Origin: Flavivirga aquimarina
GTDB lineage: Bacteria > Bacteroidota > Bacteroidia > Flavobacteriales > Flavobacteriaceae
Assembly: GCF_030540835.1 (NCBI RefSeq)
Contig: NZ_JAUOEK010000184.1
Location: 248,001 to 312,000 of the forward strand
Direction: 5' to 3'
DNA length: 64,000 nt
In this document: piece by piece, positions 25,163 to 45,526 of the stretch
Layout of the letters: each line of letters opens with the position of its first letter
How positions within the stretch are numbered: the first letter of the stretch is position 1
Program-made: the position numbers and the translations under genes
The notes under the pieces: model-generated
What the model was told of the DNA's origin: nothing
Seen by the model: the letters and a program-made list of their open reading frames with translations, nothing else
Database searches by the model: none

Positions 25163-25183
25163 GTGTATTTTTATTCAGTGAAA
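25163..25183 (-). promoter_or_regulatory. regulon motif, site A (before the minus-strand catabolic operon)
   Basis: On the minus strand TTTCACTGAA-TAAAA-ATACAC. It matches TTTCASTGAA-N5-MTRCAC, shared with sites B, C and D. It ends 70 bp before the start at 25092, and a weak -7-like TACTTTCA follows after 21 bases, the same spacing as at sites C and D. Confidence 0.65.
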
Positions 25184-25221
25184 GAATTTAAACAAAAATC
25201 GCTTAATGTATTTTGAAGTTG

Positions 25222-26319
25222 TTAAGCAAGCTGAAAATCATCAACATTTTTTGCACGATACTCGTTAGGCGAGCATTTTTCATGTTTTTTAAATACGGTT
25301 GCAAAATATTGACTGGTTGCAAAACCACACATGTAAGCCACTTCAGAAATTGTTAAATCTTTATCCTTTTTAAGTATTTCTTTCGACAACTCCAACCGTT
25401 TAATTACTAAATAACGCATTGGTGTTAAGTTGGTTAATTGCTTACAGTGATGTGTAAATCTGGTTAAACCAACGCCTGCAGATTGCGCCATTAAGTCTAT
25501 AGTCCAATTCTCTGAAAGGTTTTTATCAAGCTCTTTTAAAAAAAACTTTACACTTCTAGAACTATCTGTTAAAGACTCATTTAAAACAATATCATCCGTA
25601 TTTAGTAAATCAAGTAATAAAATGAGCAAATAATTAATAAGAAGCCTAATTCGTGATGCATTACTCCCATTTACATCTGTATTAATAGCTTTATTAATAC
25701 GCAAAAAACAATCTCTAACACGTTGATCTGTTTTCCAAATAGACTTTTCGTTTTGCCTTAAAATAGTAGTCAATCTGGTTAAATCATTTTCAGTTAATGT
25801 AATCCAATCTGGCCAAACCCAATCTTGATGGGGTCTACGAACTCCTAAATCAATAATAACCCAGTAAAATTTACCCATTCCAATAAATGGATTACCTACT
25901 TTATGCGCTTCCCAAGGCCTTGTAATTGTTAAATGATTCGGCGTAAGCAATACCTCACTATTTTCTTGACAATAAGGCATGGTACCAGATTCCAAAAAAT
26001 GAAACTCTATACCTTCATTACGATGCCAATCTAAACCCCAATCTTGTGGTTCACTCGCATCCCAATAACCAATGCTATTAAGACCCAATGTATTATCATC
26101 CAATCTATCTCCCGGATAAGTATGCCTTGCCAACGCCTTAAACTTTAATTTTTTGCGTTTAACTGCATCAACCAGAGGTATACAGGTATCTGCATGATAC
26201 GTCACTCCATCGGCTTCATAAGGCTGAATCTCCTGTATATTTATTTTCACTGAAATAATTTGAACATTATTGTTATGCAAATTAATTAAATTTCCGTTAA
26301 TTAACCGTTTAATTATCAT
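25222..26319 (-). CDS. AraC-family transcriptional regulator
   Basis: A 365-residue regulator with an N-terminal cupin-like sensing domain (WHRNEGIEFHFLESGTMPYC, LTPNHLTITRPWEAHKVG) and a C-terminal pair of helix-turn-helix motifs: IDLMAQSAGVGLTRFTHHCKQL and ISEVAYMCGFATSQYFATVFKKHEKCSPNEYR. It probably senses a sugar of the pathway and activates the surrounding operons. It is divergent from the GMC operon with an 83-bp gap. The first ATG gives an AT-rich, weakly conserved-looking start (MIIKRLINGNLINLHNNN); a GTG at codon 24 is an alternative start, and this stretch also contains a half-matching regulon motif. Confidence 0.88.
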   Translation of the reverse strand: MIIKRLINGNLINLHNNNVQIISVKINIQEIQPYEADGVTYHADTCIPLVDAVKRKKLKFKALARHTYPGDRLDDNTLGLNSIGYWDASEPQDWGLDWHRNEGIEFHFLESGTMPYCQENSEVLLTPNHLTITRPWEAHKVGNPFIGMGKFYWVIIDLGVRRPHQDWVWPDWITLTENDLTRLTTILRQNEKSIWKTDQRVRDCFLRINKAINTDVNGSNASRIRLLINYLLILLLDLLNTDDIVLNESLTDSSRSVKFFLKELDKNLSENWTIDLMAQSAGVGLTRFTHHCKQLTNLTPMRYLVIKRLELSKEILKKDKDLTISEVAYMCGFATSQYFATVFKKHEKCSPNEYRAKNVDDFQLA

Positions 26320-26337
26320 TTTCTCTATGTTTTAACA

Positions 26338-26372
26338 GTTAATAATGATTGTCAAATTGTTAAATTATTAAC
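26338..26372. promoter_or_regulatory. inverted repeat in the araC/GMC divergent promoter region
   Basis: GTTAATAAT (26338-26346) and ATTATTAAC (26364-26372) form a perfect 9-bp inverted repeat with a 17-bp spacer. Its position in the 83-bp divergent gap suits an operator. A TTG at 26357-26359 followed after 21 bases by TAAATTCC could be the promoter of the GMC operon. Confidence 0.4.
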
Positions 26373-26402
26373 CTACATACTAAATTCCTTATACAATTTT
26401 CA

Positions 26403-28130
26403 ATGATAGAAGACAAAATAACAGAATACCCAACTACCTACGATGCTATTGTAATTGGCACAGGGGTAAGTGGAGGCTGGGCTGCTAAAGAGCTTTGTGA
26501 AAATGGGTTAAAAACGCTGGTTCTTGATCGTGGACGTATGGTAAACCATATTGAAGATTACCCAACAATGCACAAAGATTCCTGGGATTTTGAACACCGT
26601 GGTGCACAAAGCAAAGAAACTCAAAAAAGGCAACATACGCAGAGTCGTTTATGGGGTGGCACTTTAACAAAACCCGAAAGTAGACATTGGTTTGTTGACG
26701 ATTTAAAGCATCCATATAATGAAGTAAAAGATTACCTTTGGTTGCGTGGTTACCATGTTGGAGGACGATCAATTATGTGGGGAAGACAATCATACCGCTG
26801 GAGCGAAATGGATTTTGAAGCCAATAAATTAGATGGCCATGGTGTTGATTGGCCTATTCGCTACAATGATATTGCGCCTTGGTATGATAAAGTGGAAAAA
26901 TTTATTGGTGTTTCTGGTAAAAATTTAGGATTAGCACAACTACCAGACGGCAAACTATCAGCCCCAATGGAGCTAAATTGTGTAGAAAAAGATTTGCAAA
27001 AAAATATAGAAAACGAATTTGACGATGGCCGTTTGTTAACCATCGGACGTGTTGCTAATAAAACAGGCGACACTGCTCACGAAGGACGTTCTAACTGCCA
27101 ATACAGAAATAGATGTATTCGCGGGTGCCCTTTTGGAGGTTACTTTAGTAGCAACTCTTCGACATTACCCGCAGCCGAACGCACCGGAAATATGCATTTA
27201 CGACCCAATTCTATAGCTTATGAAATAGTATATGATGCCGAAACCAAATTAGCATCTGGAGTTAAAGTTATTGATGCCGAAACCAAAGAAAAATTCTTTT
27301 TTAAGGCATCCATTATTTTTGGTTGTGCTTCAACTATAGGAACTACCAGTATCTTATTACAATCGAAATCAGAACGATTCCCAAATGGTTTGGGAAATGA
27401 TAGTGGCGAATTAGGGCATAACCTTATGGATCATCATTATGCAGTAGGAGCTAGAGCTGAAATTGAAGGTTTTGAGGACAAATATTATAAAGGTAGACGC
27501 CCTAATGGTTTTTACATTCCACGTTTTAGAAATTTAGGTGATAATAAAACCAAAGCCAAAAATTTTGTTCGTGGTTATGGCTACCAAGGTGCTGCCAGTA
27601 GGACAAATTGGAAACGAGCTGTTTCAGAACTAAGTTTTGGTAAAGCATTAAAAGACGAACTTTTAAAACCCGGGCATTGGGTTGTTGGAATGACGGGATT
27701 TGGCGAATGTTTACCTTATCATGACAATAAAATATCTTTAAATTACAATAAACTTGATGAGTGGGGGCTTCCTACTTTAGATATCGATGCTGAATTTAAA
27801 GATAACGAAATGAAAATGCGTGAAGACATGATGAATCAAGCTGTAGCTATGTTAAAAGCTGCAGGTTATAAAAATGTTAAAGGCATTATGGGTAAAGCTA
27901 TACAAGGTGCATGTATTCATGAAATGGGAACAGCTAGAATGGGAAGAAACCCAAAAACCTCGGTATTAAACAAACACAATCAAATACACGCTGTACCTAA
28001 TGTTTATGTTACCGATGGTGCATGTATGGCTTCTTCTGCTTGTCAAAATCCGTCACTAACTTATATGGCGTTAACAGCTAGAGCTGCAAATCATGCTGCC
28101 TCAGAATTTAAAAAGAACAAAAAAGTTTAA
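26403..28130 (+). CDS. GMC-family FAD sugar dehydrogenase large subunit with Cys cluster motif
   Basis: A 575-residue flavoprotein. The dinucleotide-binding motif GTGVSGG is at residues 19-25, and the catalytic pair is H506 (ACIHEMGTARMG) and N549 (CQNPSLTY). C232-x5-C238-x3-C242 (in SNCQYRNRCIRGCP) matches the position of the three-cysteine iron-sulfur motif of bacterial FAD-glucose and glucoside 3-dehydrogenases. It has no signal peptide. The next gene encodes the Tat-signal small subunit, which in known systems carries the large subunit across the membrane. Likely role: periplasmic oxidation of a sugar or glycoside, possibly at C3, with electrons going to cytochrome or cupredoxin. Confidence 0.85.
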   Translation: MIEDKITEYPTTYDAIVIGTGVSGGWAAKELCENGLKTLVLDRGRMVNHIEDYPTMHKDSWDFEHRGAQSKETQKRQHTQSRLWGGTLTKPESRHWFVDDLKHPYNEVKDYLWLRGYHVGGRSIMWGRQSYRWSEMDFEANKLDGHGVDWPIRYNDIAPWYDKVEKFIGVSGKNLGLAQLPDGKLSAPMELNCVEKDLQKNIENEFDDGRLLTIGRVANKTGDTAHEGRSNCQYRNRCIRGCPFGGYFSSNSSTLPAAERTGNMHLRPNSIAYEIVYDAETKLASGVKVIDAETKEKFFFKASIIFGCASTIGTTSILLQSKSERFPNGLGNDSGELGHNLMDHHYAVGARAEIEGFEDKYYKGRRPNGFYIPRFRNLGDNKTKAKNFVRGYGYQGAASRTNWKRAVSELSFGKALKDELLKPGHWVVGMTGFGECLPYHDNKISLNYNKLDEWGLPTLDIDAEFKDNEMKMREDMMNQAVAMLKAAGYKNVKGIMGKAIQGACIHEMGTARMGRNPKTSVLNKHNQIHAVPNVYVTDGACMASSACQNPSLTYMALTARAANHAASEFKKNKKV

Positions 28131-28134
28131 AGTT

Positions 28135-28794
28135 ATGAATAGAAGAGATGCTTTAAAAAACTTAACTGCAGGTTTGGGTTATACTATTGCAACACCAACT
28201 GTGTTGAGCATACTTAATTCTTGCACTGCTAAAACGGAATCATGGACGCCATTATTTCTATCTGAAACAGAAAAACATATCGTAACACATTTGGCTGATA
28301 TTATTTTACCAACTTCTGAAACGCCAGGTGCTTTAGATGTAAATGTTCCTCAATTTTTAGATTTAATGTATCATGATATGGAAACAGCAGTGAATAAAAA
28401 ATTGTTTAATACTGGCGCCACATTTTTTGTGAAAAAATTTAACAATTCATTTAACTATGAGACTACTTTAAAAGGGGAAAAAGAGGATTTTGAAAAACTA
28501 TTAAATTCTTATTTCACTCCTACTGATGGTCTCTCTGTTGAAGATGTTGAAACTTTATTAAAAGAAGATGCCGAAGCCATAATAACAAATGTAGATTTAG
28601 AGGCACCTTCAAATAAAGTTGAAACCTATTCTATTTATAAATTTTTACTATCCGTTAAATATTACACACTGTTTGGGTATTTTACATCCGAAAAAGTAGG
28701 CGAAGAAGTTTTAGCCTACGATCCAATTCCAGGAGTTTACAATAGCTGCATCTCTGTTGAAGAAGCAACCAATGGAAAAGCATGGTCTTTATAA
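28135..28794 (+). CDS. gluconate 2-dehydrogenase subunit 3 family protein (Tat-exported partner of the GMC subunit)
   Basis: A 219-residue protein. The start at 28135, 4 bp after the GMC stop, gives MNRRDALKNLTAGLGYTIATP, a twin-arginine signal followed by a lipobox-like ILNSC. The mature part follows the family pattern: LSETEKHIVTHLADIILPTSETPGALDVNVPQFLDLM near residue 45. Subunits of this kind are needed for maturation and export of GMC dehydrogenases. The longer frame beginning at 28093 overlaps the GMC gene and is rejected. Confidence 0.85.
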   Translation: MNRRDALKNLTAGLGYTIATPTVLSILNSCTAKTESWTPLFLSETEKHIVTHLADIILPTSETPGALDVNVPQFLDLMYHDMETAVNKKLFNTGATFFVKKFNNSFNYETTLKGEKEDFEKLLNSYFTPTDGLSVEDVETLLKEDAEAIITNVDLEAPSNKVETYSIYKFLLSVKYYTLFGYFTSEKVGEEVLAYDPIPGVYNSCISVEEATNGKAWSL

Positions 28795-28845
28795 ATTTGG
28801 GCACAAAATCAAAATCATTTTTTTTAATTTTAGAATAACTACATA

Positions 28846-29823
28846 ATGAAAGTCATAAATAAATCTTATACCATAACTTTATTAATGACTTTATTTATTT
28901 CGCTTAAAACATTAACCGCACAAGAATTTAAAGATTATACGATAACTATTGAAGATAAGCAAATTGCCATAGACCTAGTGGCTATTGAAGGCGGTACGTT
29001 TTATATGGGAGCTGATAAAAATGATACTACTCGTAAAAAAAACGAAAAACCTCAACACCAAGTTAAATTAGACGATTTTTGGATTGGCAAATATGAAATT
29101 ACTTGGAAACAATACGATGCTTTTGTTTATGAAAAATTTGATAACACTGATTTAAAAGAAAACCCTAAACTTGATGCTTTAGGCATAGACGCTCTTTCTG
29201 GAGCAACAACACCTTATGTAGATATGAGTTTTAATATGGGAAAAGTATCTGCTCCAGCAGTAAACATGACTCAATATGCAGCCATTATGTATTGTAAATG
29301 GCTTTCATCAAAAACAGGTATTTTCTATCGTTTGCCTACAGAGGCAGAATGGGAGTATGTTTGTAAAAAAGGAGAAACAGACAAAACAGAGACAATTAAT
29401 GATGTTTCTTGGTTCTCGGGAAACTCAGAAAATAAATATAAAAAAATAGGACTTAAAAATGCCAATAAAATTGGGGTTTATGATATGCTAGGAAATGTAT
29501 CTGAATGGGTACTAGACCAATACAGCACTTCGTATTATGAAACATCACCTAAAGAAAACCCCTGGAATAAACCTACAGAACTTTACCCTAGGGTTTTAAG
29601 AGGTGGTTCATGGAAAGATACAGCCGATAAAATCTGTTGTACTTCCAGAACGCCGTCAAATCCCTTATGGAAAAGAAGAGACCCTCAAATTCCTAAAAGT
29701 GACTGGTGGCATACTGATGCACCATTTATAGGCTTTCGAATAGTTAGACCTAAGATACAGCCATCAAAAGAAAATATTCAAAAATACTGGCTAGAAGTTA
29801 TTAAAGATTTTAATCTTAATTAA
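28846..29823 (+). CDS. secreted SUMF1/FGE-domain protein lacking the FGE cysteine pair
   Basis: A 325-residue protein with a signal peptide (MKVINKSYTITLLMTLFISL..TLTA) and a formylglycine-generating-enzyme fold: IEGGTFYMGADK, WIGKYEITWKQYDAFV, YRLPTEAEWEYVCK, GVYDMLGNVSEWVLDQY, RVLRGGSWKD and FIGFRIVRP. In true FGE two cysteines follow GGSW within seven residues. Here that stretch reads KDTADKICC, and the two cysteines are adjacent and shifted. No sulfatase is nearby. It is more likely a structural or sugar-binding relative than a sulfatase activator. Confidence 0.8.
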   Translation: MKVINKSYTITLLMTLFISLKTLTAQEFKDYTITIEDKQIAIDLVAIEGGTFYMGADKNDTTRKKNEKPQHQVKLDDFWIGKYEITWKQYDAFVYEKFDNTDLKENPKLDALGIDALSGATTPYVDMSFNMGKVSAPAVNMTQYAAIMYCKWLSSKTGIFYRLPTEAEWEYVCKKGETDKTETINDVSWFSGNSENKYKKIGLKNANKIGVYDMLGNVSEWVLDQYSTSYYETSPKENPWNKPTELYPRVLRGGSWKDTADKICCTSRTPSNPLWKRRDPQIPKSDWWHTDAPFIGFRIVRPKIQPSKENIQKYWLEVIKDFNLN

Positions 29824-29831
29824 TCATTATT

Positions 29832-31160
29832 ATGAGCAATGAAACTAAAAATTTTACACGCAGAGATTTTGTAAAAGGGTCATCTTTAGCAACTAGTGGC
29901 ATTATACTTGCACCTTCATTATTAAGTGCAACGCCTTTTAAAAAGAAAGAAAATATTTTAAAATTGGCTGTAATAGGCTGTGGTGGCAGAGGTACTGGAG
30001 CTGTTGTTCAAGCACTCAAAGCAGATGAGAATGTGCAATTAGTAGCTATGGCTGACGCTTTTAAAGATCAAGTAGATAAGTCTTATGAAAACTTATCTAA
30101 AATATTTGATCCCACACGAATACCAGTAAAAAATACCATGAAATTTTTCGGGTTCGGTTCCTATAAAAAGGCTATCGACGAAGCCGATGTTATTATACTA
30201 ACAACACCCCCGGGGTTTAGACCTCAGCATTTTGAATATGCTATTTCGCAAGGCAAACACGTTTTTATGGAAAAACCTGTAGCTACTGATGTAGCAGGAG
30301 TAAAAAAAGTTTTAGAGGCTGCTAAAATAGCAGAAGCAAAAAAACTTAATGTTGTTCTGGGTTTGCAAAGACGTTATCAATCTAGCTATCTAGAATCATT
30401 TAACCATATTAAAAAAGGCGATTTAGGCAAAATTGTCTCTGGTCAAGTGTATTGGAATAGTGGCGGTGTATGGGTACGCCCCAGAAAGGAAAATTATACC
30501 GAAATGGAATACCAAATGCGAAACTGGTATTATTTTAATTGGCTTTGTGGCGATCATATATTAGAACAGCATATTCACAACTTAGACGTCGCTAACTGGT
30601 TTATAGGAGAATACCCTATTAAAGCACAGGGTATGGGCGGAAGACAAGTAAGAAATGGTAAAGATCATGGTCAAATTTTCGATCATCACTTTGTAGAATT
30701 TGAATACCCCAGTGGCGCTATTATTTCAAGTCAATGCAGGCATCAAAAAGGTTGTTTAACTCGTGTTTCCGAATCGTTTCAAGGTACCTTAGGAACTTCA
30801 GAAACCAGTGGTGCGAATAACGCATTATTAAAATCGTATTCTGGTGATGTTATTTATACGCATGATGACGAAATGTATAAAAACCCATATCAAGTTGAGC
30901 ATGACAAACTTTTTGCTGCTATTAGAAATGGAGAAGTAATTAATAATGTTGATTATGGTGTAAAAAGTACCATGACAGCTATTTTAGGAAGAATGGCAAC
31001 CTATTCCGGAAAACAAATTACATGGGACGAGGCCATGGCTTTTGAACATAACCTGGTTCCAAACGAAGACACTTTATCATTTGATTCAATACCTCCGGTA
31101 ATTCCCGATGAATTTGGCAATTACCCTATTCCAGTTCCTGGTGAAACAACTTTTATTTAA
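29832..31160 (+). CDS. Tat-exported Gfo/Idh/MocA-family oxidoreductase
   Basis: A 442-residue protein with a Tat signal (TRRDFVKGSSLATSGIILAPSLLS), a Rossmann domain (LAVIGCGGRGTGAVVQAL), the catalytic EKPVATD at about residue 155, and the GDHILEQHIHNLDVANWF block holding the active-site histidine. Export of folded protein with NAD(P) bound is known for related enzymes such as glucose-fructose oxidoreductase and GH109. It may oxidise or reduce a sugar hydroxyl in the periplasm, or break a glycosidic bond through a 3-keto intermediate. It is 8 bp after the SUMF1-like gene. Confidence 0.85.
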   Translation: MSNETKNFTRRDFVKGSSLATSGIILAPSLLSATPFKKKENILKLAVIGCGGRGTGAVVQALKADENVQLVAMADAFKDQVDKSYENLSKIFDPTRIPVKNTMKFFGFGSYKKAIDEADVIILTTPPGFRPQHFEYAISQGKHVFMEKPVATDVAGVKKVLEAAKIAEAKKLNVVLGLQRRYQSSYLESFNHIKKGDLGKIVSGQVYWNSGGVWVRPRKENYTEMEYQMRNWYYFNWLCGDHILEQHIHNLDVANWFIGEYPIKAQGMGGRQVRNGKDHGQIFDHHFVEFEYPSGAIISSQCRHQKGCLTRVSESFQGTLGTSETSGANNALLKSYSGDVIYTHDDEMYKNPYQVEHDKLFAAIRNGEVINNVDYGVKSTMTAILGRMATYSGKQITWDEAMAFEHNLVPNEDTLSFDSIPPVIPDEFGNYPIPVPGETTFI

Positions 31161-31172
31161 AAAATTTATAAA

Positions 31173-32102
31173 ATGGATAGACGAATATTTATAAAAAAAA
31201 GCGCTACTGCTGCATCCTTTTTAGGGTTGGGACTTACAGGGCTTAATGCTTTAAATACATCTGGAAACCAAAAAAATATAGCTCTTAACTCCTTTAAATT
31301 GAATTATGCGCCTCATTTGGGCATGTTTAAACATCATGCAGGAGAAAGCCCTATCGATCAATTAAGTTTTATGGCCGATGAAGGCTTTACAGCTTTTGAG
31401 GATAACGGCATGAAAAACCGTTCTGTTAAAACCCAGGATGCCATGACCAAGGTTATGATTGATAGAGGTATAAAAATGGGGGTTTTTGTTGCACATAAAA
31501 TTTCTTGGAAAGAACCTAATCTCTCAAGCGGTAACCTGGAAAAACGCGAAGCGTTTTTAAATGATATAAAAGCATCTGTCGAAGTAGCAAAACGTGTTAA
31601 TGCAAAATGGATGACCGTGGTTCCTGGTCATGTAGATTTAAAACAAAACATGGGTTATCAAACCAAGCACGTTATTGAAACTTTAAAACAAGCTTCAGCT
31701 ATTTTAGAACCGCATAACTTAACTATGGTATTAGAACCATTGAACTTTAGAAATCACCCAGGCCAATTTTTAAGTGAATCCCCTCAAGCTTATCAAATAT
31801 GTAAAGCTGTAGACTCACCATCTTGTAAAATTCTTTTTGATATTTATCATCAACAAATACAAGAAGGCAACTTAATTCCTAACATTGATGCCTGTTGGGA
31901 TGAAATAGCTTATTTCCAAGTAGGTGACAACCCAGGTAGAAAAGAACCTACGACCGGCGAAATTAACTATAAAAATGTTTTTAAGCATATTCACTCTAAA
32001 GGTTTTAAAGGTATTATAGGAATGGAGCATGGAAACTCTAAAAAAGGCAAAGAAGGTGAACGTGCTGTAATTAACGCCTATAAAGTTTCTGATAATTTTT
32101 AA
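31173..32102 (+). CDS. Tat-exported hydroxypyruvate-isomerase-like TIM barrel
   Basis: A 309-residue protein with a twin-arginine signal (MDRRIFIKKSATAASFLGLG). The mature part resembles Hyi/xylose isomerase-like barrels: VVPGHVD, MVLEPLNFRNHPGQFL, KILFDIYHQQIQEGNL, YFQVGDNPGRKEPTTGEINY and FKGIIGMEHGNS contain the Glu, Asp, His and Glu metal ligands. It lies 12 bp after the Tat Gfo/Idh/MocA gene, so the two probably act in sequence in the periplasm. The substrate is unknown. Confidence 0.82.
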   Translation: MDRRIFIKKSATAASFLGLGLTGLNALNTSGNQKNIALNSFKLNYAPHLGMFKHHAGESPIDQLSFMADEGFTAFEDNGMKNRSVKTQDAMTKVMIDRGIKMGVFVAHKISWKEPNLSSGNLEKREAFLNDIKASVEVAKRVNAKWMTVVPGHVDLKQNMGYQTKHVIETLKQASAILEPHNLTMVLEPLNFRNHPGQFLSESPQAYQICKAVDSPSCKILFDIYHQQIQEGNLIPNIDACWDEIAYFQVGDNPGRKEPTTGEINYKNVFKHIHSKGFKGIIGMEHGNSKKGKEGERAVINAYKVSDNF

Positions 32103-32153
32103 ATTTATGCTACAATAAACTTTTTTATTTAAATAAATTAAATATACCAAATC

Positions 32154-32525
32154 ATGACAAAAAAAATCGTCAACTATATTTTATTTATCACTTTCACTCT
32201 TTTTGCAGTTATCCAGTTAAATGATCCTGATAGTATTTTGTGGTTTTCAATATATTTCTTTGTCGCTTTAATTTGTTTAATCGCAAATTTTAAAACAATT
32301 CCAAAATCAATTTTAATTATAACAATTACTGGGCTACTTGCCTTTTCGGCATTCCATTTTTCTCTTTTTATTGATTACTTACATACCGAAAACAAAGAAG
32401 AGATTTTTGGAGCAATGGTTTACGAAAAACCATACTTAGAAGGTACAAGAGAATTTATCGGACTTTTAATTGCTGCTGTAGGTGTTATTTATCAATTAAA
32501 AAAACCTAAGAGGATTCAGGAATAG
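32154..32525 (+). CDS. TMEM220-like small membrane protein
   Basis: A 123-residue protein with four hydrophobic segments (about residues 8-22, 28-46, 52-70 and 98-115). The motif AVIQLNDPD at the end of the first segment is typical of the transmembrane 220 family found in Bacteroidetes and eukaryotes. Function unknown. It is the last gene of the GMC operon, 51 bp after the TIM-barrel gene, and may be an accidental passenger. Confidence 0.75.
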   Translation: MTKKIVNYILFITFTLFAVIQLNDPDSILWFSIYFFVALICLIANFKTIPKSILIITITGLLAFSAFHFSLFIDYLHTENKEEIFGAMVYEKPYLEGTREFIGLLIAAVGVIYQLKKPKRIQE

Positions 32526-32593
32526 CATAAGCTAAAAAACGAATACGCTTATTTCTTTCAAAACTCTTTTTAAGAAACTTTTTGTTTGTTTTT

Positions 32594-32614
32594 TTTCAGT
32601 GAATGATTATACAC
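32594..32614 (+). promoter_or_regulatory. regulon motif, site B (before the TonB receptor)
   Basis: TTTCAGTGAA-TGATT-ATACAC on the plus strand, 80 bp before the receptor start. TAATTTTG, a full -7 match, follows at 32628-32635, but no TTG lies at the right distance upstream. A missing -33 box fits an activator-dependent promoter. Confidence 0.65.
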
Positions 32615-32694
32615 AAAAATCAGTTATTAATTTTGCATCTTTACATCCGTATTTCATCAATTTTAAATTCTCCCCCTATCAAGAAACAACAATA

Positions 32695-35505: not shown

Positions 35506-35520
35506 AATAATAAAAATCTT

Positions 35521-37428
35521 ATGAAATATTTATCATTTTTAACAACCATACTGATAATCTATTTCACTGTATCCTGTACTAAAGACAAAAAACTAGTTAA
35601 TACATTTCCAGAAGAAAAGAAAAAACAAATTGAAGCACTACCATTTACTGCATTAGATCTCACTGATATGAATGCTTTTAAGCCTGTTTCAAAAAATTGG
35701 AATATTGTTGGCGATGTGGTTGCCAATAGAACAAAAAAACAAGCTTTTAGTGCTTCTGAAGGTACAGGTGTTTTACTAAACACACCGCAAAAAGAAACAA
35801 AAGAGCATCTGTTTACCAGTTTTGAACATGGCGATATCGAACTAGAATTTGATGTTATGATGCCTTTACAATCAAATTCCGGAATTTATTTTCAGGGGCG
35901 TTATGAAATTCAACTCTTTGATAGTTGGGGAATTGAAAACCTAAAACACAGTGATATTGGAGGTATTTACCAACGATGGAATAACGATGCTGAAAAAGGT
36001 AAAGAAGGCTACGAAGGTCATCCACCAAAATTAAACGCAGCCAAAGCTCCGGGGTTATGGCAACATTTTAATATTTTATTTCGCGCTCCAAGATTTGATG
36101 ATGCAGGGAATAAAATTAAAAATGCTCAGTTTGAAAAAGTTATTTTAAACGGCATGTTACTTCATGAAAATATCGAAGTATTCGGGCCAACACGTTCTTC
36201 TGCTTTTAATGATGAAAAAGCTATGGGGCCACTTATGATACAAGGCGATCACGGTGCTGTAGCATTTAAAAACATGAAGTATAAATTATATGAAAGTAAA
36301 GCTATAGGGATTAAAAGCACCTCTTTAAAAACTTATGATAATCCCAATGAAATTACCGTTATTAAAACTATTGATAGCTTTAATAAAATAAGTGAAATAA
36401 AAACAGATTCTATTTCGCCAATGATGCGTGTTGATAGAAATGGACGAAACATCCTTACATATTCGGGCGCTTTAAGCATCCCTGATTCCGGCGATTATCT
36501 TTTTGAAATGAAAGTTAACGGTGGCACCTTTCTTATTATAAATAATGACACCATTATTAACCTGAACAATCTTTTTAGGTCGGATACTACAGCTTTTAAA
36601 AAAGTGGCATTGAAAAAAGGGGATGTATCTTATAAATTACTTTACAACAAACCTTTTCCTTGGTACCGTGGTTTCGATTTATATGTAGAAGGCCCTAACA
36701 TGCAACGCTATTCCATTCAAAAAACAAGTTTGGATGATTTGAGAAAACAAAAACCTATAAAAGAAATAACACTAGAAGTTAAAGATCAGCCTATAACACA
36801 ACGTAGTTTTATAATACATAAAGGCGAAAAGCGCACTCATTGCATTTCGGTTGGTTTAACAGAACATTTAAACTACACATTAGATCTGGCAACTGGGTCT
36901 TTGTTACAAGTTTGGAATGGTGCGTTTTTAAGAACAACCCAAATGTGGCACTCTAGAGGCCAACACCAAACAGGCGAACCTATCGGATTTACAATTGCTT
37001 CTCATGGCGACTTAGATTTTGCTTATCTAGAAAATAAAAATGACGAATGGCCCAAGCATTTAAATGAAGACTTAAGCTTTAAATCATTAGGTTACGAGTT
37101 TGACGACAAACAAATTCCTAAGTTTTCCTTTAAAATAAATGATGCCGAAATTTCTAATATCCTTATAGCTTCTAAAGATGAAAAGAGAGGTTTAAACAGA
37201 ATTATTAGTATAAATTCTCAAACTCCTATTTGGCATAAAATTGCCGGTGGAAGCAGTATTAAAGCATTGCCAAATAACACCTATATTATTAATAATGAAA
37301 GTTACTATATAGATTTTTCTGGTAATAAAAATTTAAAACCCTTAATTAGGCATAGTCATGGTAAAGATGAATTATTGGTAAAAATACCTAAAGGCGAATC
37401 AACAATTAATTATGACATTATCTGGTAA
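35521..37428 (+). CDS. DUF1080 lipoprotein with extra beta domains
   Basis: A 635-residue lipoprotein (lipobox FTVSC at about residue 19). An N-terminal DUF1080 domain (about residues 40-255) shows MPLQSNSGIYFQGRYEIQLFDSWG and GPLMIQGDHGAVAFKNMKYKLY. A PA14-like stretch follows (SGALSIPDSGDYLFEMKVNGG), and the C-terminal third (HCISVGLTEHLNYTLDLATGSLLQVWNGAFL) matches a domain often found beside heme-binding sugar dehydrogenases in Planctomycetes and Verrucomicrobia, as I recall. It likely acts on a keto-glycoside at the cell surface or in the periplasm. Confidence 0.8.
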   Translation: MKYLSFLTTILIIYFTVSCTKDKKLVNTFPEEKKKQIEALPFTALDLTDMNAFKPVSKNWNIVGDVVANRTKKQAFSASEGTGVLLNTPQKETKEHLFTSFEHGDIELEFDVMMPLQSNSGIYFQGRYEIQLFDSWGIENLKHSDIGGIYQRWNNDAEKGKEGYEGHPPKLNAAKAPGLWQHFNILFRAPRFDDAGNKIKNAQFEKVILNGMLLHENIEVFGPTRSSAFNDEKAMGPLMIQGDHGAVAFKNMKYKLYESKAIGIKSTSLKTYDNPNEITVIKTIDSFNKISEIKTDSISPMMRVDRNGRNILTYSGALSIPDSGDYLFEMKVNGGTFLIINNDTIINLNNLFRSDTTAFKKVALKKGDVSYKLLYNKPFPWYRGFDLYVEGPNMQRYSIQKTSLDDLRKQKPIKEITLEVKDQPITQRSFIIHKGEKRTHCISVGLTEHLNYTLDLATGSLLQVWNGAFLRTTQMWHSRGQHQTGEPIGFTIASHGDLDFAYLENKNDEWPKHLNEDLSFKSLGYEFDDKQIPKFSFKINDAEISNILIASKDEKRGLNRIISINSQTPIWHKIAGGSSIKALPNNTYIINNESYYIDFSGNKNLKPLIRHSHGKDELLVKIPKGESTINYDIIW

Positions 37429-37444
37429 GCTAAAACAAATAATC

Positions 37445-39406
37445 ATGCAAAAAACAATAACATTAACAGCCTTAGTAGTTTTCTTTTGTATTGGTCAATT
37501 AAGTTTTAGTCAATCAAAATCGTCAATCATAAAAAAAGAAGCTAAATACTATAAAATTGTAGATGTCCCCATTCCAAAAGATGTAATATTAGAAGTAGGT
37601 GGATTAGCATTAACCGATGATGATAAACTAGGTGTTTCTACACGTAGAGGTGAAGTATGGCTTATTGATAAACCAAATAGCAAAACACCTATTTATAATA
37701 GATATGCTCATGGTTTACATGAAGCATTAGGTCTTGCTTATAAGGATAATGGATTTTATTTATCGCAAAGAGGTGAGCTTACGCGTCTAGAAGATAAAAA
37801 CAATGATGGGGTTGCCGATTTATATAAAACAATTTATTCATGGCCACTATCTGGGAACTATCACGATTATTCTTATGGGCCAAAGATTTTAGATAACGAT
37901 GACATGCTGGTAACCTTAAACCTATCTTGGATTGGTTATGGTGCAAGCTTAGTAAAATGGCGAGGTTGGTTATTAAAAATCACACCTGAAGGAGAAATGA
38001 CACCTATAGCAACAGGTTTACGCTCGCCTGCTGGTTTCAGTGTAAATAATGAAGGTGATATATTTTATACCGAGAATCAAGGCGATTGGGTAGGTTCTGG
38101 AAGAATGACTCATTTAGAAAAAGGTGATTTTGCGGGAAGCCCTGAAGGCTTAAAATGGACAGACGATCCAAAATCGCCTCTAAAGCTAAAGCCTGAAGAT
38201 ATTAAAGATAATTCGGGGTTTACTCTTTATGAATATGCTCAAAAAATACCTGAATTAAAAGCACCTGCTATATGGTTTCCGCATACTATTTTGGGTATTT
38301 CTACATCAGATATTCTTTATGATACTACTCAGGGAAAATTTGGCCCTTTTGAAGGTCAACAGTTTATAGGAGACCAAGGGCATAGTAAAATTATGCGTGT
38401 TTATATGGAAAAAATAAACGGCGTTTACCAAGGCGCTGCCTTCCCTTTTGTTGAAGGTTTTTCTTCAGGGGTTTTAAGAATGATTTGGGGAAGTGATAAT
38501 AACATGTTTGTTGGTATGACTAGTAGGGGTTGGGCTTCAACAGGAAAAAAAGAGTTTGGATTACAACGCTTGGTTTGGACTGGTAAAACGCCTTTTGAAA
38601 TTAAAACCATGAAAGTTCAAAATGATGGTTTTATACTCGAGTTTACTAAACCGGTAAATAAAAAAATGGCGAGAGATTTATCAACTTATAAGCTCTCAAC
38701 ATTCACTTATAAATATCATAAAAAATATGGCAGTCCTATTATTGACCAGCAAAATGCTATGGTTCATAAAGCTGATGTTTCAGAAGATGGCTTAACTGTA
38801 AGGTTAACAATTCATGGTATGCGATTGGGGTATATTCATCAAATTGAAATACCTACTTTAAAGTCTACTTCTGGTGAATTGTTGCTACATAATACAGGAT
38901 ATTATACTTTAAATGAAGTTCCCGGTGGTGAGTTAAAATCGCATCAAATGGATTTACCAAAAACATCTGGAAAAGTTGTAGACCAACCTAAGCGCGTAAA
39001 TACTATGCCAGCTTCGTGGGGAGAAAAAGGTGCTGATGAAAAATTAGTTATTGGTACTGTTCCCGGTTTAAAATATGATGTTGAAGAAGTTACTATTAAT
39101 AGAAATAGCAAAATTCAATTAACTTTAAATAACAATGATGACATGCTGCACAACATTGTTATAACAAAACCGGGAGAAAAAACGCCGTTAAAAGTTGGTG
39201 AAATGGCTCTTAATTTGGGACTTGATGGTCCTGATTTAAGCTATGTTCCTTTTTCAGATTTGGTTTTATTTCATTCAGGAATCGTAGGACCAGAAAGTAA
39301 TGAAACTATTTATTTTACTTCGCCAAACGAACCCGGAGAATATTGGATAGTATGTACATTCCCAGGACATGCTTATACTATGAGAACAAAATTGATTGTA
39401 AAGTAA
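37445..39406 (+). CDS. beta-propeller dehydrogenase-like protein fused to a C-terminal cupredoxin
   Basis: A 653-residue secreted protein (signal MQKTITLTALVVFFCIGQLSFSQ; start at 37445, 16 bp after the previous stop). Residues about 40-400 form a propeller of the sorbosone/glucose dehydrogenase or PVC heme-binding-region type (GLALTDDDKLGVSTRRGEVWLI, ATGLRSPAGFSVNNEGDIFYTENQGDW). The last about 110 residues are an azurin/plastocyanin-like domain with a complete type 1 copper site: H569 (LHNIV), C637, H642 and M646 in CTFPGHAYTM. The fusion suggests that electrons from sugar oxidation pass directly to copper. Confidence 0.85.
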   Translation: MQKTITLTALVVFFCIGQLSFSQSKSSIIKKEAKYYKIVDVPIPKDVILEVGGLALTDDDKLGVSTRRGEVWLIDKPNSKTPIYNRYAHGLHEALGLAYKDNGFYLSQRGELTRLEDKNNDGVADLYKTIYSWPLSGNYHDYSYGPKILDNDDMLVTLNLSWIGYGASLVKWRGWLLKITPEGEMTPIATGLRSPAGFSVNNEGDIFYTENQGDWVGSGRMTHLEKGDFAGSPEGLKWTDDPKSPLKLKPEDIKDNSGFTLYEYAQKIPELKAPAIWFPHTILGISTSDILYDTTQGKFGPFEGQQFIGDQGHSKIMRVYMEKINGVYQGAAFPFVEGFSSGVLRMIWGSDNNMFVGMTSRGWASTGKKEFGLQRLVWTGKTPFEIKTMKVQNDGFILEFTKPVNKKMARDLSTYKLSTFTYKYHKKYGSPIIDQQNAMVHKADVSEDGLTVRLTIHGMRLGYIHQIEIPTLKSTSGELLLHNTGYYTLNEVPGGELKSHQMDLPKTSGKVVDQPKRVNTMPASWGEKGADEKLVIGTVPGLKYDVEEVTINRNSKIQLTLNNNDDMLHNIVITKPGEKTPLKVGEMALNLGLDGPDLSYVPFSDLVLFHSGIVGPESNETIYFTSPNEPGEYWIVCTFPGHAYTMRTKLIVK

Positions 39407-39529
39407 AACGTTTTTAATGCTATTGCAAAAATGGATTTGTAAAAGTTAAACTGACCTCATTTTGATTTAAAATTGGTAAAAGCACTAAAGTTAATGCTTG
39501 TCACCTTAAGTACATCGAAATCACGATAA

Positions 39530-41302: not shown

Positions 41303-41359
41303 CTTAAAAGATTTGGGGTCAATGATGAATGTTTAAATATGTATCAATATAAGTAAATA

Positions 41360-43606
41360 TTATCTATTCTTGGTTTTTTCTTCTTTTTCAAGTTCTTCTA
41401 ACGTCCAATAATCTTCACGGTCTTTGGTTGCAGCTCTTGTATTGCGTACATCTTTTTTACTAATCAAACTTGCTCCGTTAATAGCCCTAACATAGCTTAG
41501 TACATCTGAAAGCCACTGATCTCCATTATCTTTTAATGGTAACATAATACCGTATTCTTTTCCGTCTATTGGCCCAATAAGACCATTAAGTAAAATTTTA
41601 TTTAACGTGTTTTTATTTCCTAAAACTCTAGGGCTACCAATTAAAGTAGGTGCAATTAGTAATCCATCTTCACTTTTAGCGCCTTGCATATCGGCTCCAT
41701 GACATGTTATACATAATTGATTATATATATCGTAGCCATCTAAAATTCTTTTTCTATCATTTATAGATTTATCTGAAAATTGCTCTTTTAACTGGGCTAA
41801 TCTTGAGTCATCTTTCTTTAAACTTTCTTTTACAGAATGCGCAATTATTTCATTTTCATTAAACTTTTCACCTATAAAATCAAGTATTTCGGTGGCTTTT
41901 TTATCTTTACTATTACGTAAACTTAGTGCTATTTGATTTACAACTTCTATATCATCACTTTTAGATAATTCTTCTAATGATGATAACAACGATGTGTCTC
42001 CTGATTTTAAATATGAATCGCATAACCGAATGGCTATAACTTTTACGCGAGTATCTTCATCTTTTAATTTTTCATTAACTAAGGTTTTATCTAACGCATC
42101 TAAACCTTCTAATGTATAAAGCGCATGTATTCTTTGTAAACCAAAATCTTTATCGGCATTAAAAAGTCCTCCGAAAAACGATTCATTATCTCTTGCAATA
42201 TCTTTAAGATCTTCAATCACAGACTCATCTTCTTTTAAGATAATTAGTTTTTGAGCTGTATTACGATACCAACCATTTGGATGCCCCAAGTATTCTAATA
42301 ACTCTGAAGCTGATTTACCAAGCATATTAGGACGCTTATCTGGTTTAATATCTTCATGTACTATTCTGTAAATTCTACCTTTACCTATATTTTTATCTAG
42401 TTCTTTACGAATAATAACAGGTCTTATAGCACTTCCTTCTCTAGTCCAGTTACTTTCTTGAATGATACCACGGTACATGTCTACAATATACAATGTGCCA
42501 TCTGGTCCGGTCTTAGCTTGTACTGGTCTAAAATTTAAATCGGTAGAAGCCATAAACTCTGTTTTATCATAGGCATTATAAAGCACTTTTTTACCGTTTT
42601 CATTTTTAACTTTGGCTCTTCTTATAAGTCTACCAACAGGTTCTGGAATAAATAAATCACCATACATTGATGGCGGTAATTTATGTCCGCGAAAAAGCTC
42701 TTGTCCCGCTACCCCAGTAAAGTAGTTAAGTGTATTATCTTCACGTAATCGTTTAGGTCCACCTTGAACATCTGGTGTTCCAACTATTGGCCATGGTTCC
42801 ATAAAACCTTCTGCTAACCTCCCTGGTGGGTCGTAAGCACCATAAACGGCATGCTGTTGAAATCCATAAGCAGGGTTCTCGGCTCCAGCAGTCGAGTAAT
42901 ACATAATACCCATATCGTCTTGTGTTAAACCCCATTGCCCTCTAGTCATATTTTCAAGGGTATCAACAATAACCTTATTTTTTTTGAATTTGAATCTTGC
43001 CGGGTTATATGTAGTATATACCCAATTATCTAAATTCCAAAGCAACCCACTTTGTTGATGTTCTAAGTTACCCCCTCTTCGATTTTTATTATGGTATACA
43101 CGTTCTTTTTTATCGGCTACTCCATCATTATCTGTATCCTTATAACTCCATAAATCATACGAAAAAGTTTCATTTACAATTAATTCATTCTCCAATGGTA
43201 AAATCATTCTTGGAAGTAACAAACTATCTATAAAAACAGTACTCTTATCCATTTTGCCATCGCCATCTAAATCTTCTAATAGTTTTATTTTACTAATAGA
43301 TCGATTTGTCCCAGTACCATCAACATCTTGCATGTATGTATTCATTTCTGCTACATACATTCTACCATCTCCATCCCAAGCTATTGCTACAGGTTCATCA
43401 ACCATTGGTTCACTGGCCACCAACTCTACCTTATAGCCTTCTGGCAAATAAAAGGTTTTCATACTTTCTTCTGGTGAAAGAAATTTTGAAGGTGCTTCTC
43501 TTACTATTTCCGGTTTCTCGTAAATTTTATCCGCGTATTGTTTTTCTTTACAAGAAAAAAGAATCATAATTGTAAGAAGTCCTAATGTTAATTTTAGCTT
43601 TTCCAT
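41360..43606 (-). CDS. propeller - HEAT repeat - cytochrome c lipoprotein (PVC-type membrane-bound dehydrogenase)
   Basis: A 748-residue lipoprotein (lipobox ILFSC, about residue 19). Domains in order: a beta-propeller (about 50-420; YKVELVASEPMVDEPVAIAWDGDGRMYVAEM, DLDGDGKMDKSTVF, KTGPDGTLYIVDMYRG), a HEAT-like helical part (about 430-600), and a class I cytochrome c with C632-x2-C635-H636 (CITCHGADM) and a probable Met ligand near MLPLKDNGDQW. This plan is common in Planctomycetes and Verrucomicrobia. It likely oxidises a sugar in the periplasm and passes electrons on through heme. Site C lies upstream. Confidence 0.85.
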   Translation of the reverse strand: MEKLKLTLGLLTIMILFSCKEKQYADKIYEKPEIVREAPSKFLSPEESMKTFYLPEGYKVELVASEPMVDEPVAIAWDGDGRMYVAEMNTYMQDVDGTGTNRSISKIKLLEDLDGDGKMDKSTVFIDSLLLPRMILPLENELIVNETFSYDLWSYKDTDNDGVADKKERVYHNKNRRGGNLEHQQSGLLWNLDNWVYTTYNPARFKFKKNKVIVDTLENMTRGQWGLTQDDMGIMYYSTAGAENPAYGFQQHAVYGAYDPPGRLAEGFMEPWPIVGTPDVQGGPKRLREDNTLNYFTGVAGQELFRGHKLPPSMYGDLFIPEPVGRLIRRAKVKNENGKKVLYNAYDKTEFMASTDLNFRPVQAKTGPDGTLYIVDMYRGIIQESNWTREGSAIRPVIIRKELDKNIGKGRIYRIVHEDIKPDKRPNMLGKSASELLEYLGHPNGWYRNTAQKLIILKEDESVIEDLKDIARDNESFFGGLFNADKDFGLQRIHALYTLEGLDALDKTLVNEKLKDEDTRVKVIAIRLCDSYLKSGDTSLLSSLEELSKSDDIEVVNQIALSLRNSKDKKATEILDFIGEKFNENEIIAHSVKESLKKDDSRLAQLKEQFSDKSINDRKRILDGYDIYNQLCITCHGADMQGAKSEDGLLIAPTLIGSPRVLGNKNTLNKILLNGLIGPIDGKEYGIMLPLKDNGDQWLSDVLSYVRAINGASLISKKDVRNTRAATKDREDYWTLEELEKEEKTKNR

Positions 43607-43715
43607 TAAAAGTTTATTTAGATATGTATAAAAGCACCCAGATTATATTTTAACCTGAATAAATCGTCAATGATTTAAATAAAAACCAAATATATATACA
43701 AAAACCAATATTATA

Positions 43716-43736
43716 GTGCAGTATTTTTCACTGAAA
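43716..43736 (-). promoter_or_regulatory. regulon motif, site C (before the propeller-cytochrome gene)
   Basis: On the minus strand TTTCAGTGAA-AAATA-CTGCAC. After 21 bases comes the -7 box TATATTTG (43694-43687), a full match to TAnnTTTG. The gene starts 80 bp further on. The rest of the 477-bp gap (43607-44083) holds only the terminator at 43954-44004. Confidence 0.7.
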
Positions 43737-43953
43737 TAAATTATACTTCGGTAATCTATGTAACCGAAGTATCATTTATGATATCAATTAGAATTTAAAT
43801 CTTGTTACAGCCCAAAAGCTATGGAAAGATTAATAATATATAAAAAATAAATTTTCACTCCCAACTGATGAATCTGTTATAAAATCAACTTTTTTTGGTG
43901 CTCAGGGAAGCCATTAAAAAATAGTCTATACCAATTTTCAACTATATATGATA

Positions 43954-44004
43954 TAAAAAAAGGGTTCAACTTTAATCTCGATGGCTATCGGAAAGTCAAA
44001 CCCT
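43954..44004 (-). terminator. intrinsic terminator after the 189-aa lipoprotein gene
   Basis: On the minus strand AGGGTTTGACTTT (44004-43992) pairs with AAAGTTGAACCCT (43973-43961), with one G-T or mismatch position in the arm, followed by seven T. It lies 79 bp after the gene's stop and upstream of site C, so it isolates the two transcription units. Confidence 0.8.
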
Positions 44005-44083
44005 TAATATTTTAACTTAAACACTTTGTGGAATAGTGTCTCGTTATTATTTCTTAGCTTGAATAACTAAAAAATATATAATA

Positions 44084-44653
44084 CTATTTCCAAGTAGCTG
44101 TTTTAGCTGCTTCAAATATTTTTTCTGCTTCTTCTAAAGAATATTCACTCATACTAAAACCAGAGTTCATTTCAATAGATTCTCCTTTGTCATTCATTTT
44201 AATATAATCAACAAAGTAATCTACATCTCCTCCAATAGCTGTTTTATAAATAAAACCATTAGCCTCTTCTTTAACTATTTCGAAACCTTCATCTTCCTCA
44301 CTTACTTCTTTATAATATGCAACTAGTTCTTCCAAAGACATTCCAGAAGCCTCACTATCCATATTTACTTCTAATTTAAATTTACCATTAGAGATAAGTA
44401 AACTTGTTGTTTTTACTCCATCAACTTCAGCGCCACCCATACCCTTTTTAATTTCAGCGCCACTTGGTGCTTGTATAATGGTAGGAATACCTTTTTCTGT
44501 TAAATCGTAGCTGGCTATAGCAGGAGCTTCTTCAACAGGAGTTTCTGTGCTACCTTTATTTTCAGAAAGGTTTTCTTTTTTAGTTTTTCCACCGCATGAT
44601 ACCAAAGAAGTTAAAATAATTAGGAAGGCGATTGATTTTTTTAGGTTTTGCAT
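44084..44653 (-). CDS. lipoprotein of unknown function
   Basis: A 189-residue protein with a lipoprotein signal (MQNLKKSIAFLIILTSLVSC). After a Glu/Lys/Ser-rich linker it has a single acidic alpha/beta domain (IIQAPSGAEIKKGMGGAEVDGVKTTSLLISNGKFKLEVNMD) of a kind that resembles small periplasmic stress or binding proteins. I do not recognise the family. It lies between the azurin gene (271 bp upstream) and the propeller-cytochrome gene. No regulon motif lies directly before it. Confidence 0.7.
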   Translation of the reverse strand: MQNLKKSIAFLIILTSLVSCGGKTKKENLSENKGSTETPVEEAPAIASYDLTEKGIPTIIQAPSGAEIKKGMGGAEVDGVKTTSLLISNGKFKLEVNMDSEASGMSLEELVAYYKEVSEEDEGFEIVKEEANGFIYKTAIGGDVDYFVDYIKMNDKGESIEMNSGFSMSEYSLEEAEKIFEAAKTATWK

Positions 44654-44924
44654 GATTTTGTAATTTTGGGGTTAAATAAATTTTAAGCAAAAATATCAAT
44701 TTATAATTAATGACAAAATTTTAATACTCTAATACAACTATTTTTTAATCCAGCAGGTCTTTATCCGGGTCTTTCTCTCCATGTATAAGTAGAAATTTAT
44801 CTGCTGAATTGGTTATCAAAAAAAGAAAATAAATTTTTTCTGCTTCACTTTAGCGAAGCATTAGTAGGTTAAACTACAATAAGTTTAGTTTAACTATTGT
44901 TTTTATTTCGTAAAATACAACGTA

Positions 44925-45446
44925 TTATTCTACAATAAATTTACCTTTCATTATAGCGTAATGCCCGGGAAAACTACATAAAAAATCGTAGGTTCCAGGT
45001 TCTGGAGCATCAAACTCAATGGTGGTTGTTTGTCCACCACCAATTAATTTAGTATGTGCAATAATATCATCCTTAAAATCAGCTGGAATATAGTCGGTAG
45101 CTTTAGAAGTGGCCGCCTTATTTCCAAAAGCAGCAACATTTACACCTTGCTTTAAAATAACAAGATTATGTCCCATAATATTAATAGCCATTTTACCTTT
45201 GTGTCTTAAGGTTATTTTTACTTTTTGACCTGCTTTTACCTTAATTTCAGATTTATCAAATTTCATCATATCATCACCAGAAATGACAATACTAGCTACA
45301 TTGTTATCTGTTTTAGTTTCAGTTTCTGTTTTATTTGTCTTTTTTTCATACGAAAAACCTTCTTTCTTTTTTTCTTCTTTGCCTCCACAACCTATTAGTA
45401 GCGTAAATGAAAAAATCGATAACGCAAAAAGTTTTACTGCTTTCAT
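44925..45446 (-). CDS. azurin-type blue copper lipoprotein
   Basis: A 173-residue lipoprotein (lipobox LIGC20) with a charged linker and a full azurin domain. The copper ligands are all visible: G92-H93 (MGHNLVIL), C157, H162 and M166 (CSFPGHYAIMKG). PADFKDDIIAHTKLIGGGQTTTIEF is also azurin-like. It should be a soluble-domain electron carrier tethered in the periplasm. It is preceded by site D, so it is probably made with the sugar dehydrogenases and accepts their electrons (inference). Confidence 0.93.
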   Translation of the reverse strand: MKAVKLFALSIFSFTLLIGCGGKEEKKKEGFSYEKKTNKTETETKTDNNVASIVISGDDMMKFDKSEIKVKAGQKVKITLRHKGKMAINIMGHNLVILKQGVNVAAFGNKAATSKATDYIPADFKDDIIAHTKLIGGGQTTTIEFDAPEPGTYDFLCSFPGHYAIMKGKFIVE

Positions 45447-45505
45447 ATTTGTTTTTTATTTATAAGATTTTAAAACCAAATATATGTATATAAAAACATA
45501 TATAA

Positions 45506-45526
45506 GTGCAGTATTTTTCACTGAAA
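45506..45526 (-). promoter_or_regulatory. regulon motif, site D (before the azurin gene)
   Basis: On the minus strand TTTCAGTGAA-AAATA-CTGCAC, identical in both halves and spacer to site C. The -7 box TATATTTG (45484-45477) follows after 21 bases, the same distance as at site C. The start codon is 30 bp further on. Confidence 0.72.

Follow-up and report, generated by a model that had tools for sequence, protein, structure and literature searches.

In a stretch of 64,000 nucleotides from Flavivirga aquimarina (contig NZ_JAUOEK010000184.1, positions 248,001 to 312,000 of the forward strand), hereafter the window and numbered from its first letter, five copies of a 31-bp inverted repeat were found. 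These five sites are probably the operators of the AraC-family protein encoded at 25222-26250 on the minus strand. As judged from sequence comparisons, the protein would activate a local 3-keto-glycoside catabolic regulon and probably repress its own gene.

An initial annotation of the window had described a gapped motif, TTTCASTGAA-N5-MTRCAC, at four places. The four copies, their coordinates, strands and 5-bp spacer were all exact on re-checking. The motif was found to be one half of an odd-centred inverted repeat, GT-N9-TTCA-N-TGAA-N9-AC, and the shared orientation that had been ascribed to the copies therefore has little meaning. The pattern GT-N9-TTCASTGAA-N9-AC had five exact matches in the window (A, E, B, C, and D), and both halves fitted in every one of them, which ruled out an asymmetric gapped motif. 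What had been taken for a half-matching copy at 26245-26254 belongs to a complete site at 26235-26265, so there are five sites and not four. Each half-site has two conserved boxes 10 bp apart, GTDYA on the outside and TTTCA on the inside. Self-complementarity ranged from 18 to 28 of the 31 positions, site D being nearly perfect and the others imperfect. The sites, the promoter elements close to them and the regulator gene are as follows:

Site A dyad, 25163..25193 (unstranded): exact pattern match, upstream of the minus-strand TIM-barrel / MFS / Gfo-Idh / TIM-barrel / DUF1080 operon.
Weak -7 box TACTTTCA, 25134..25141 (minus): 21 bp past site A, 4/6 fixed bases.
Site E dyad, 26235..26265 (unstranded): separates araC from the divergent GMC operon; the araC start codon has its first letter at the centre of the dyad, 26250.
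GMC-operon -7 box TAAATTTC, 26287..26294 (plus): 21 bp past site E, 5/6 fixed bases.
Possible araC -7 element TTAATTTG, then C, 26278..26285 (minus): putative promoter.
araC, AraC/XylS-family regulator, 342 aa from GTG 26250, 25222..26250 (minus): Pfam HTH_18 and HTH_AraC; start taken from 80 orthologues.
Site B dyad, 32584..32614 (unstranded): upstream of the plus-strand TonB-receptor / DUF1080 / cupredoxin-domain genes.
Perfect -7 box TAATTTTG, 32628..32635 (plus): 13 bp past site B, outside the 21-bp rule.
Site C dyad, 43716..43746 (unstranded): upstream of the minus-strand DUF7133-cytochrome c lipoprotein gene.
Perfect -7 box TATATTTG, 43687..43694 (minus): 21 bp past site C.
Site D dyad, 45506..45536 (unstranded), 28/31 self-complementary: upstream of the minus-strand azurin gene.
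Perfect -7 box TATATTTG, 45477..45484 (minus): 21 bp past site D.

No exact dyad was detected outside the island in the whole genome (5,291,796 bases in 184 contigs). When up to one mismatch was allowed, the same five dyads alone were recovered, every one exact, and the reversed control gave 11 places, none exact. The mean count of the dyad in 100 shuffles of the window was 0.00. The original gapped motif was likewise expected 0.00 times in window shuffles and had no copy without mismatch elsewhere in the genome; at up to two mismatches it gave 15/15 places genome-wide against 17/14 for the reversed pattern, which is background, so only its exact sites are meaningful and the relaxed motif was discarded. 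A sequence model of the site gave E-values of 5.5e-6 to 1.4e-4 for the five sites and 0.016 for the next place in the genome, values that hold by construction, since the window itself supplied sites to the model. With a weight matrix trained on other loci, the window sites scored 33 to 38, the next place in the window 2.2 and the reversed window no more than 4.9. Further regulon members in the same genome at C24 and C107 (E 0.016-0.04) are not claimed, because these values fall within the range of genomes lacking araC (best E at least 0.0096).

The conservation of the sites was analyzed in loci found by scanning the AraC protein against genome contigs, 80 of the 163 relatives being used (68-88% identity, mostly Flavobacteriaceae genera, 1.57 Mb). 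The exact dyad was present in 128 copies in 70 of the 80 loci, and the reversed pattern in none. An iterated weight matrix detected 180 sites, with at least one in every locus, and one reversed-locus place passed the threshold; because the training began with exact matches, before the iterations, the matrix is biased towards the pattern at its fixed positions. Variant sites, several of them A- or T-centred, occur in the ten loci that lack an exact dyad.

A gene was counted as preceded by a site when one lay no more than 330 bp upstream, excluding matches beginning past query residue 90 and genes for which under 350 nt was available upstream. A site was found before every operon-leading GMC (63/63), TIM1 (56/56), and MFS (10/10) gene, and before 8 of the 23 operon-leading TMEM220 genes. 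Within operons, none was found before GDH3 (0/76), TIM2 (0/52), GfoIdh1 (0/47), MFS (0/38), GMC (0/30), DUF1080a (0/28) or DUF7133-cytochrome (0/4) genes; the exceptions were TIM1 close behind araC (8/9 with a site) and TonB (1/8). The aldehyde dehydrogenase (0/22), FGE (0/14), and GNAT (0/17) neighbours also lacked a site. Equal frequency of the motif in coding sequence or before unrelated genes was thus not seen, operon-internal genes being nearly always without a site, and the motif was confined to the island in its own genome, recurred before orthologous genes and tracked the araC orthologue, as the initial annotation had anticipated. These counts indicate that the GMC and TIM1/MFS operons form the constant core, and that azurin, TonB and, above all, DUF7133-cytochrome are lineage-dependent. 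The operons originally listed as served do follow the sites, but the GMC operon, a core member, had been omitted, and azurin, TonB, and DUF7133-cytochrome bear a site in some relatives only.

The content of the loci also varied. Many relatives (L066, L067, L069, L070, L072, L078, L101, and others) have at least two GMC genes divergent from araC, mostly each paired with a gluconate-2-dehydrogenase-3-like partner; the window has one such pair. Most catabolic genes are missing within 10 kb of araC in the Allomuricauda/Flagellimonas loci L113, L122, L137, and L144. The start-codon operator is weak or absent in L113, L122, and L144, and another site persists within about 600 bp of araC.

The presence of the dyad was also compared between genomes with and without the regulator. 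An araC orthologue (at least 69% identity) was present in 22 of the 199 family genomes. Exact dyads were found in 19 of these 22 (42 sites versus 2 reversed-control matches), whereas 15 of the 177 genomes without the orthologue had them at background level (16 sites versus 23 control matches). The best E-value of the sequence model was at most 2.0e-4 in all 22 genomes with the orthologue and at least 0.0096 in all of the 22 compared genomes without it, these latter being the next best matches in the protein scan and not a random draw. This contrast in strong sites (22/22 versus 0/22) is partly by construction, as 13 of the 22 orthologue genomes are the same assemblies as loci in the set and four of those 13 supplied model sites; 17 of the 22 supplied none.

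Seventeen chosen site-bearing stretches from relatives were inspected, with sites located near araC in some and on other contigs in others; those away from araC included sites before azurin, GMC with GDH3, DUF1080b, and TonB orthologues. Sites preceded azurin (L216, L219, L222, and L223), DUF1080b (L216 and L219), GMC with GDH3 (L218), TIM1 (L224), and the TonB and DUF7133-cytochrome orthologues (L225). L230 is an araC locus, and the dyad is centred on an ATG start there too. A strong dyad was located before SusC/SusD genes beside GH32 enzymes in L214 (genome G070), together with a LacI regulator, and in L226 (genome G034), together with a PfkB kinase; this suggests that in some relatives the predicted regulator also reaches sucrose or fructan uptake. 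Other sites preceded a DUF7133-HEAT-cytochrome protein (L217; L221 resembled it by eye), a DUF1553/planctomycete-cytochrome protein (L215), and an NHL-repeat protein that has a ThuA-GSDH-cytochrome protein behind it (L220), all of them possible further members of the putative regulon. In the same-genus genome G019, an exact dyad on contig C1 was rejected, with a score of 14.4 and no plausible target, and so were L227 and L228.

The araC frame, previously taken to start at 26319, should start at GTG 26250. When araC starts were sought at set offsets, that of -48 served 77 of the 80 orthologues, which have an aligned [G/A]TG start at this one position (64 GTG and 13 ATG); the remaining three have it at a nearby offset. 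The start at 26319 is ruled out by L086, L099, L103, L137, and L144, in which a stop codon closes the frame shortly before the conserved [GA]TG. Codons 8 and 10 retain Ile and Pro through varied synonymous codons, which makes a start much farther downstream unlikely. In 75 of the 80 loci (64 GTG and 11 ATG), the operator passes the threshold when centred on the start codon, and it is degenerate or absent in L092, L096, L122, L132, and L144 (2 GTG and 3 ATG). In the Mariniflexile loci L092 and L096, the GTG start was kept though the surrounding operator has decayed. The start codon follows the central base of the operator, GTG where it is G-centred and ATG where it is A-centred, because of the overlap itself.

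GTG starts were counted in 66 of the 80 araC genes versus 5 of 275 neighbouring genes (268 ATG, 5 GTG, and 2 TTG), a neighbour being included when its alignment, with no less than 45% identity, extended to residue 3 or earlier and its start was one of these three codons. Moreover, codon 5, which lies under the outer arm of the operator, was ATA in all 53 Ile cases, compared with 44 of 75 at codon 8. Selection therefore appears to act here on the DNA and not on the protein alone, with a significance that is inflated by the relatedness of the 80 loci. The sequence TTTGC was found no more than 20 nt before the operator in 63 of the 75 loci and is possibly part of the araC -7 element, which would place the operator just past the araC transcription start. 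The operator also places a T at position -3 of the araC start, where an A favours initiation in Flavobacterium johnsoniae according to the available text of PMC6847099, so that weak translation of araC may be expected.

A different reading of site E is that it activates the GMC operon only, its overlap with the start codon having no regulatory effect on araC. The short divergent intergenic space could bring about the overlap by mere packing, but the dyad centre falls exactly on the start codon in those 75 loci, and the excess of GTG over neighbouring genes and the codon-5 ATA bias relative to codon 8 also make this reading doubtful. Both biases point to a constraint on the DNA, though not to its consequence for araC.

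The position of the sites relative to the promoters was then considered. The -7 element of Bacteroidota, TAnnTTTG, spans -12 to -5 (PMC6847099, available text). A match to at least five of its six fixed bases began at offset 21 in 80 of the 163 gene-facing sites, at offset 20 in 20 and at offset 19 in 13, and no other offset up to 59 had more than eight. After removal of similar downstream sequences, 38 of 83 matched at offset 21 and at most eight at any other. Among 18 off-locus sites, the match was at 21 in 12 and at 20 in four. The offset-21 match was strong for GMC (48/64) and azurin (11/13), and 50 of the 64 GMC-facing sites had a match to at least five of the six bases at 20 or 21 bp. 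In the window, the boxes at 21 bp from sites C and D are perfect, and that of site E towards GMC has 5/6. With the T of TAnnTTTG placed at -12, the site spans about -64 to -34 and ends at the position of the -33 element, a placement that would suit an activator adjoining the polymerase.

The same placement could also be read as repression, with AraC blocking RNA polymerase at the catabolic operons until released by the sugar signal. A protein bound to the site, which adjoins the -33 position, could also obstruct polymerase. Moreover, it is mainly for GMC and azurin that a clear 21-bp spacing was seen, which slightly lowers the case for activation and slightly raises that for repression. Nevertheless, this alternative is unlikely, since the edge of the site is fixed about 21 bp from a clear -7 box in more than one gene family, and a repressor could be expected to act from various positions. 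In addition, AraC-family regulators of catabolism are mostly activators.

The regulator itself has the features expected of such a protein. HTH_18 scored 64.6 bits (cut-off 33.6) and HTH_AraC 56.3 bits in two stretches, which indicates a C-terminal domain with two helix-turn-helix (HTH) units. The AlphaFold model was confident mainly in this DNA-binding domain, with seven helices in the confident part, and Foldseek target TM-scores (TMt) of 0.70-0.92 were obtained to the DNA-binding domains of AraC-family proteins (AdpA, MarA, and AraC). The full-length model was set aside, the DNA-binding domain alone being usable. The nearest solved sequences were a hybrid two-component protein (E 1.1e-8) and AraC-type regulators, all matching the C-terminal part; no kinase or receiver domain was found in the regulator by the Pfam scan. 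A protein with two HTH units, such as MarA or AraC, requires a half-site with two boxes one helical turn apart. The GTDYA and TTTCA boxes, 10 bp apart, would thus suit two HTH units on one face of the DNA.

It could be argued that the dyad is bound by another transcription factor and that AraC is merely a frequent neighbour, the more so as operators of the AraC family are not usually compact inverted repeats (compare PMC3870299, available text). This is quite improbable given the co-occurrence of strong sites with the araC orthologue, the site centred on the araC start codon in most loci and the fit of the two-box half-site to a two-HTH protein. In addition, L113, L122, L137, and L144 keep a site beside araC with most of the catabolic genes gone. 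As for a dispersed repeat or a chance resemblance without regulatory function, the only observation in its favour was that sites C and D are nearly identical in one half, and this reading is already refuted by the absence of the dyad from the 100 shuffles, by the 80/80 loci with varying spacers and by the concentration of sites at operon starts.

Several observations weigh against the proposed AraC regulon. Towards the N-terminus of the regulator, Cupin_2 scored 21.7 bits, under its cut-off of 27.2, and the predicted local distance difference test (pLDDT) values were mostly low before residue 140. The tolerance of one mismatch in its own genome gave 11 reversed-control places versus 5 for the pattern, and weight was accordingly placed on exact sites only. 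Sites were only partially present before leading azurin (13/21), TonB (6/12), and DUF7133-cytochrome (1/5) genes, and none preceded azurin when close behind another gene (0/13). Three of the 17 inspected stretches (L227-L229) had weaker sites and no plausible target. The -7 match at offset 21 was weak for TIM1 (15/64), TonB (4/12), and MFS (2/10). In the window, the boxes reported by the initial annotation hold, perfect at 21 bp for C and D and weak for A (4/6), but it did not mention the boxes of site B, which has 4/6 at 21 bp and a perfect box at 13 bp instead. Finally, the available text of PMC3870299 gives direct repeats with a 21-bp periodicity as the predicted sites of the AraC-type rhamnose regulators of Bacteroides, Bacillales, and Enterococcus, whereas all five window sites are inverted repeats. 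The Rha regulators of Escherichia coli also use inverted repeats (same source), and the repeat arrangement is therefore not decisive for the AraC family.

The AraC regulon could then work as follows. An AraC dimer would bind the inverted repeat head to head, each monomer placing its two HTH units on one half-site, on the outer GTDYA and the inner TTTCA boxes, one helical turn apart. The inducer would be a sugar signal, likely a glycoside or a 3-keto-sugar. The bound protein would recruit RNA polymerase to the -7 box about 21 bp downstream, the site standing in for the -33 element. Uptake, C3-oxidation of glycosides by the GMC dehydrogenase and cleavage of the 3-keto product by DUF1080 proteins would be switched on, together with later steps (TIM barrels and Gfo/Idh proteins) and electron carriers (azurin and DUF7133-cytochrome). 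Site E would have a dual role, activating the divergent GMC operon and limiting araC from its start codon, a short way downstream of the likely araC promoter. At this stage the binding of AraC to the sites, activation, autorepression, the roles of the enzymes and the ligand are all predicted. The fuller picture, in which one dimer on a compact odd-centred operator activates the divergent oxidation operon and represses its own gene, the central C/G preference has locked a GTG start with T at -3 across dozens of species, and oxidation, uptake, and electron carriers are coupled in one regulon, stands at about even chances.

The genes of the island assigned to these operators are the following:

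26403..28794 (plus): GMC oxidoreductase and gluconate-2-dehydrogenase-subunit-3-like protein, which open the operon that site E faces.
28846..32525 (plus): FGE-sulfatase-domain protein, Gfo/Idh oxidoreductase, TIM barrel, and TMEM220 protein, which, to judge from their close spacing, probably complete the GMC operon.
19746..25092 (minus): TIM barrel, MFS transporter, Gfo/Idh oxidoreductase, TIM barrel, and 3-keto-disaccharide hydrolase domain protein, the operon downstream of site A.
32599..39406 (plus): TonB receptor, DUF1080 protein, and cupredoxin-domain protein, downstream of site B.
41360..43606 (minus): DUF7133 / PVC-type heme-binding lipoprotein, downstream of site C.
44925..45446 (minus): azurin, downstream of site D; Pfam Copper-bind.

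GMC_oxred_N/C, Gluconate_2-dh3, and two 3keto-disac_hyd proteins were above cut-off in the scan of the island, and the NCBIfam score of azurin was 104.2 bits, just under its cut-off of 105.1. The gene set appears to be a 3-keto-glycoside-type locus, in which C3 oxidation and cleavage would take place. The listed start of the TonB open reading frame, GTG 32599, falls within site B, and an ATG near 32695, ahead of a signal-peptide-like stretch, is likelier. No SusR-like or hybrid two-component system (HTCS) regulator was found among the 20 island proteins scanned. After the island, at 47558-57003 on the plus strand, there is a sigma-factor / FecR-like / SusC / SusD / beta-helix set without a dyad before it, which is probably a separately controlled uptake locus.

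Taken together, the sites mark a real and well-conserved regulon. It probably belongs to a known kind, the local AraC catabolic regulon, and has an unusual operator that overlaps the gene of the regulator itself; binding and the sign of control are predicted from the sequences. It provides a defined candidate switch in flavobacteria for glycoside breakdown by C3 oxidation, a route with no regulation described there in open-licence literature. The operator may serve as a search handle for the uptake and electron-carrier genes of the route, including azurin and DUF7133-cytochrome, which otherwise lack clear partners. The operator on the start codon is a clean case of one DNA stretch constrained by both a regulator and a translation start. 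The initial annotation knew of no regulon of this kind; no published description was found in open-licence literature, which does not contradict it and is weak evidence of absence.

As in the AraC, RhaS, and RhaR regulons of E. coli, a sugar regulator with a two-HTH domain lies beside its putative targets, and the sites are near the core promoter. Unlike in those regulons, the half-sites abut around one central base, with 31 bp in total, and one operator is centred on the start codon of the regulator. E. coli RhaR has 17-bp half sites with a 17-bp spacer, as given in the available text of PMC3870299. The rhamnose regulators of that study are likewise AraC-type sugar regulators, one group of them from the same phylum.

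A further comparison is offered by Bacteroides thetaiotaomicron, in which BT2159-BT2156, the neighbours of BT2160, presumably form a 3-keto-glycoside-type operon. BT2160 (SusR4) resembles the present regulator in being co-localised with predicted glycosyl hydrolases of unknown specificity, but it is SusR-like, which rules it out as an AraC-type regulator, with predicted direct repeats and SusR-type centres 67 or 77 bp apart (PMC3878776, available text). The gene set of the window resembles the LacABC/DUF1080 route, which consists of periplasmic oxidation of glycosides followed by cleavage of the keto product, as described in the available text of PMC9007349. In Caulobacter and Pedobacter a membrane dehydrogenase lies beside DUF1080, as it does here, and in Caulobacter epimerases and a reductase are nearby (same source). 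The available text describes neither a regulator nor operators for that route; in the window the azurin and DUF7133-cytochrome genes also bear the operator.

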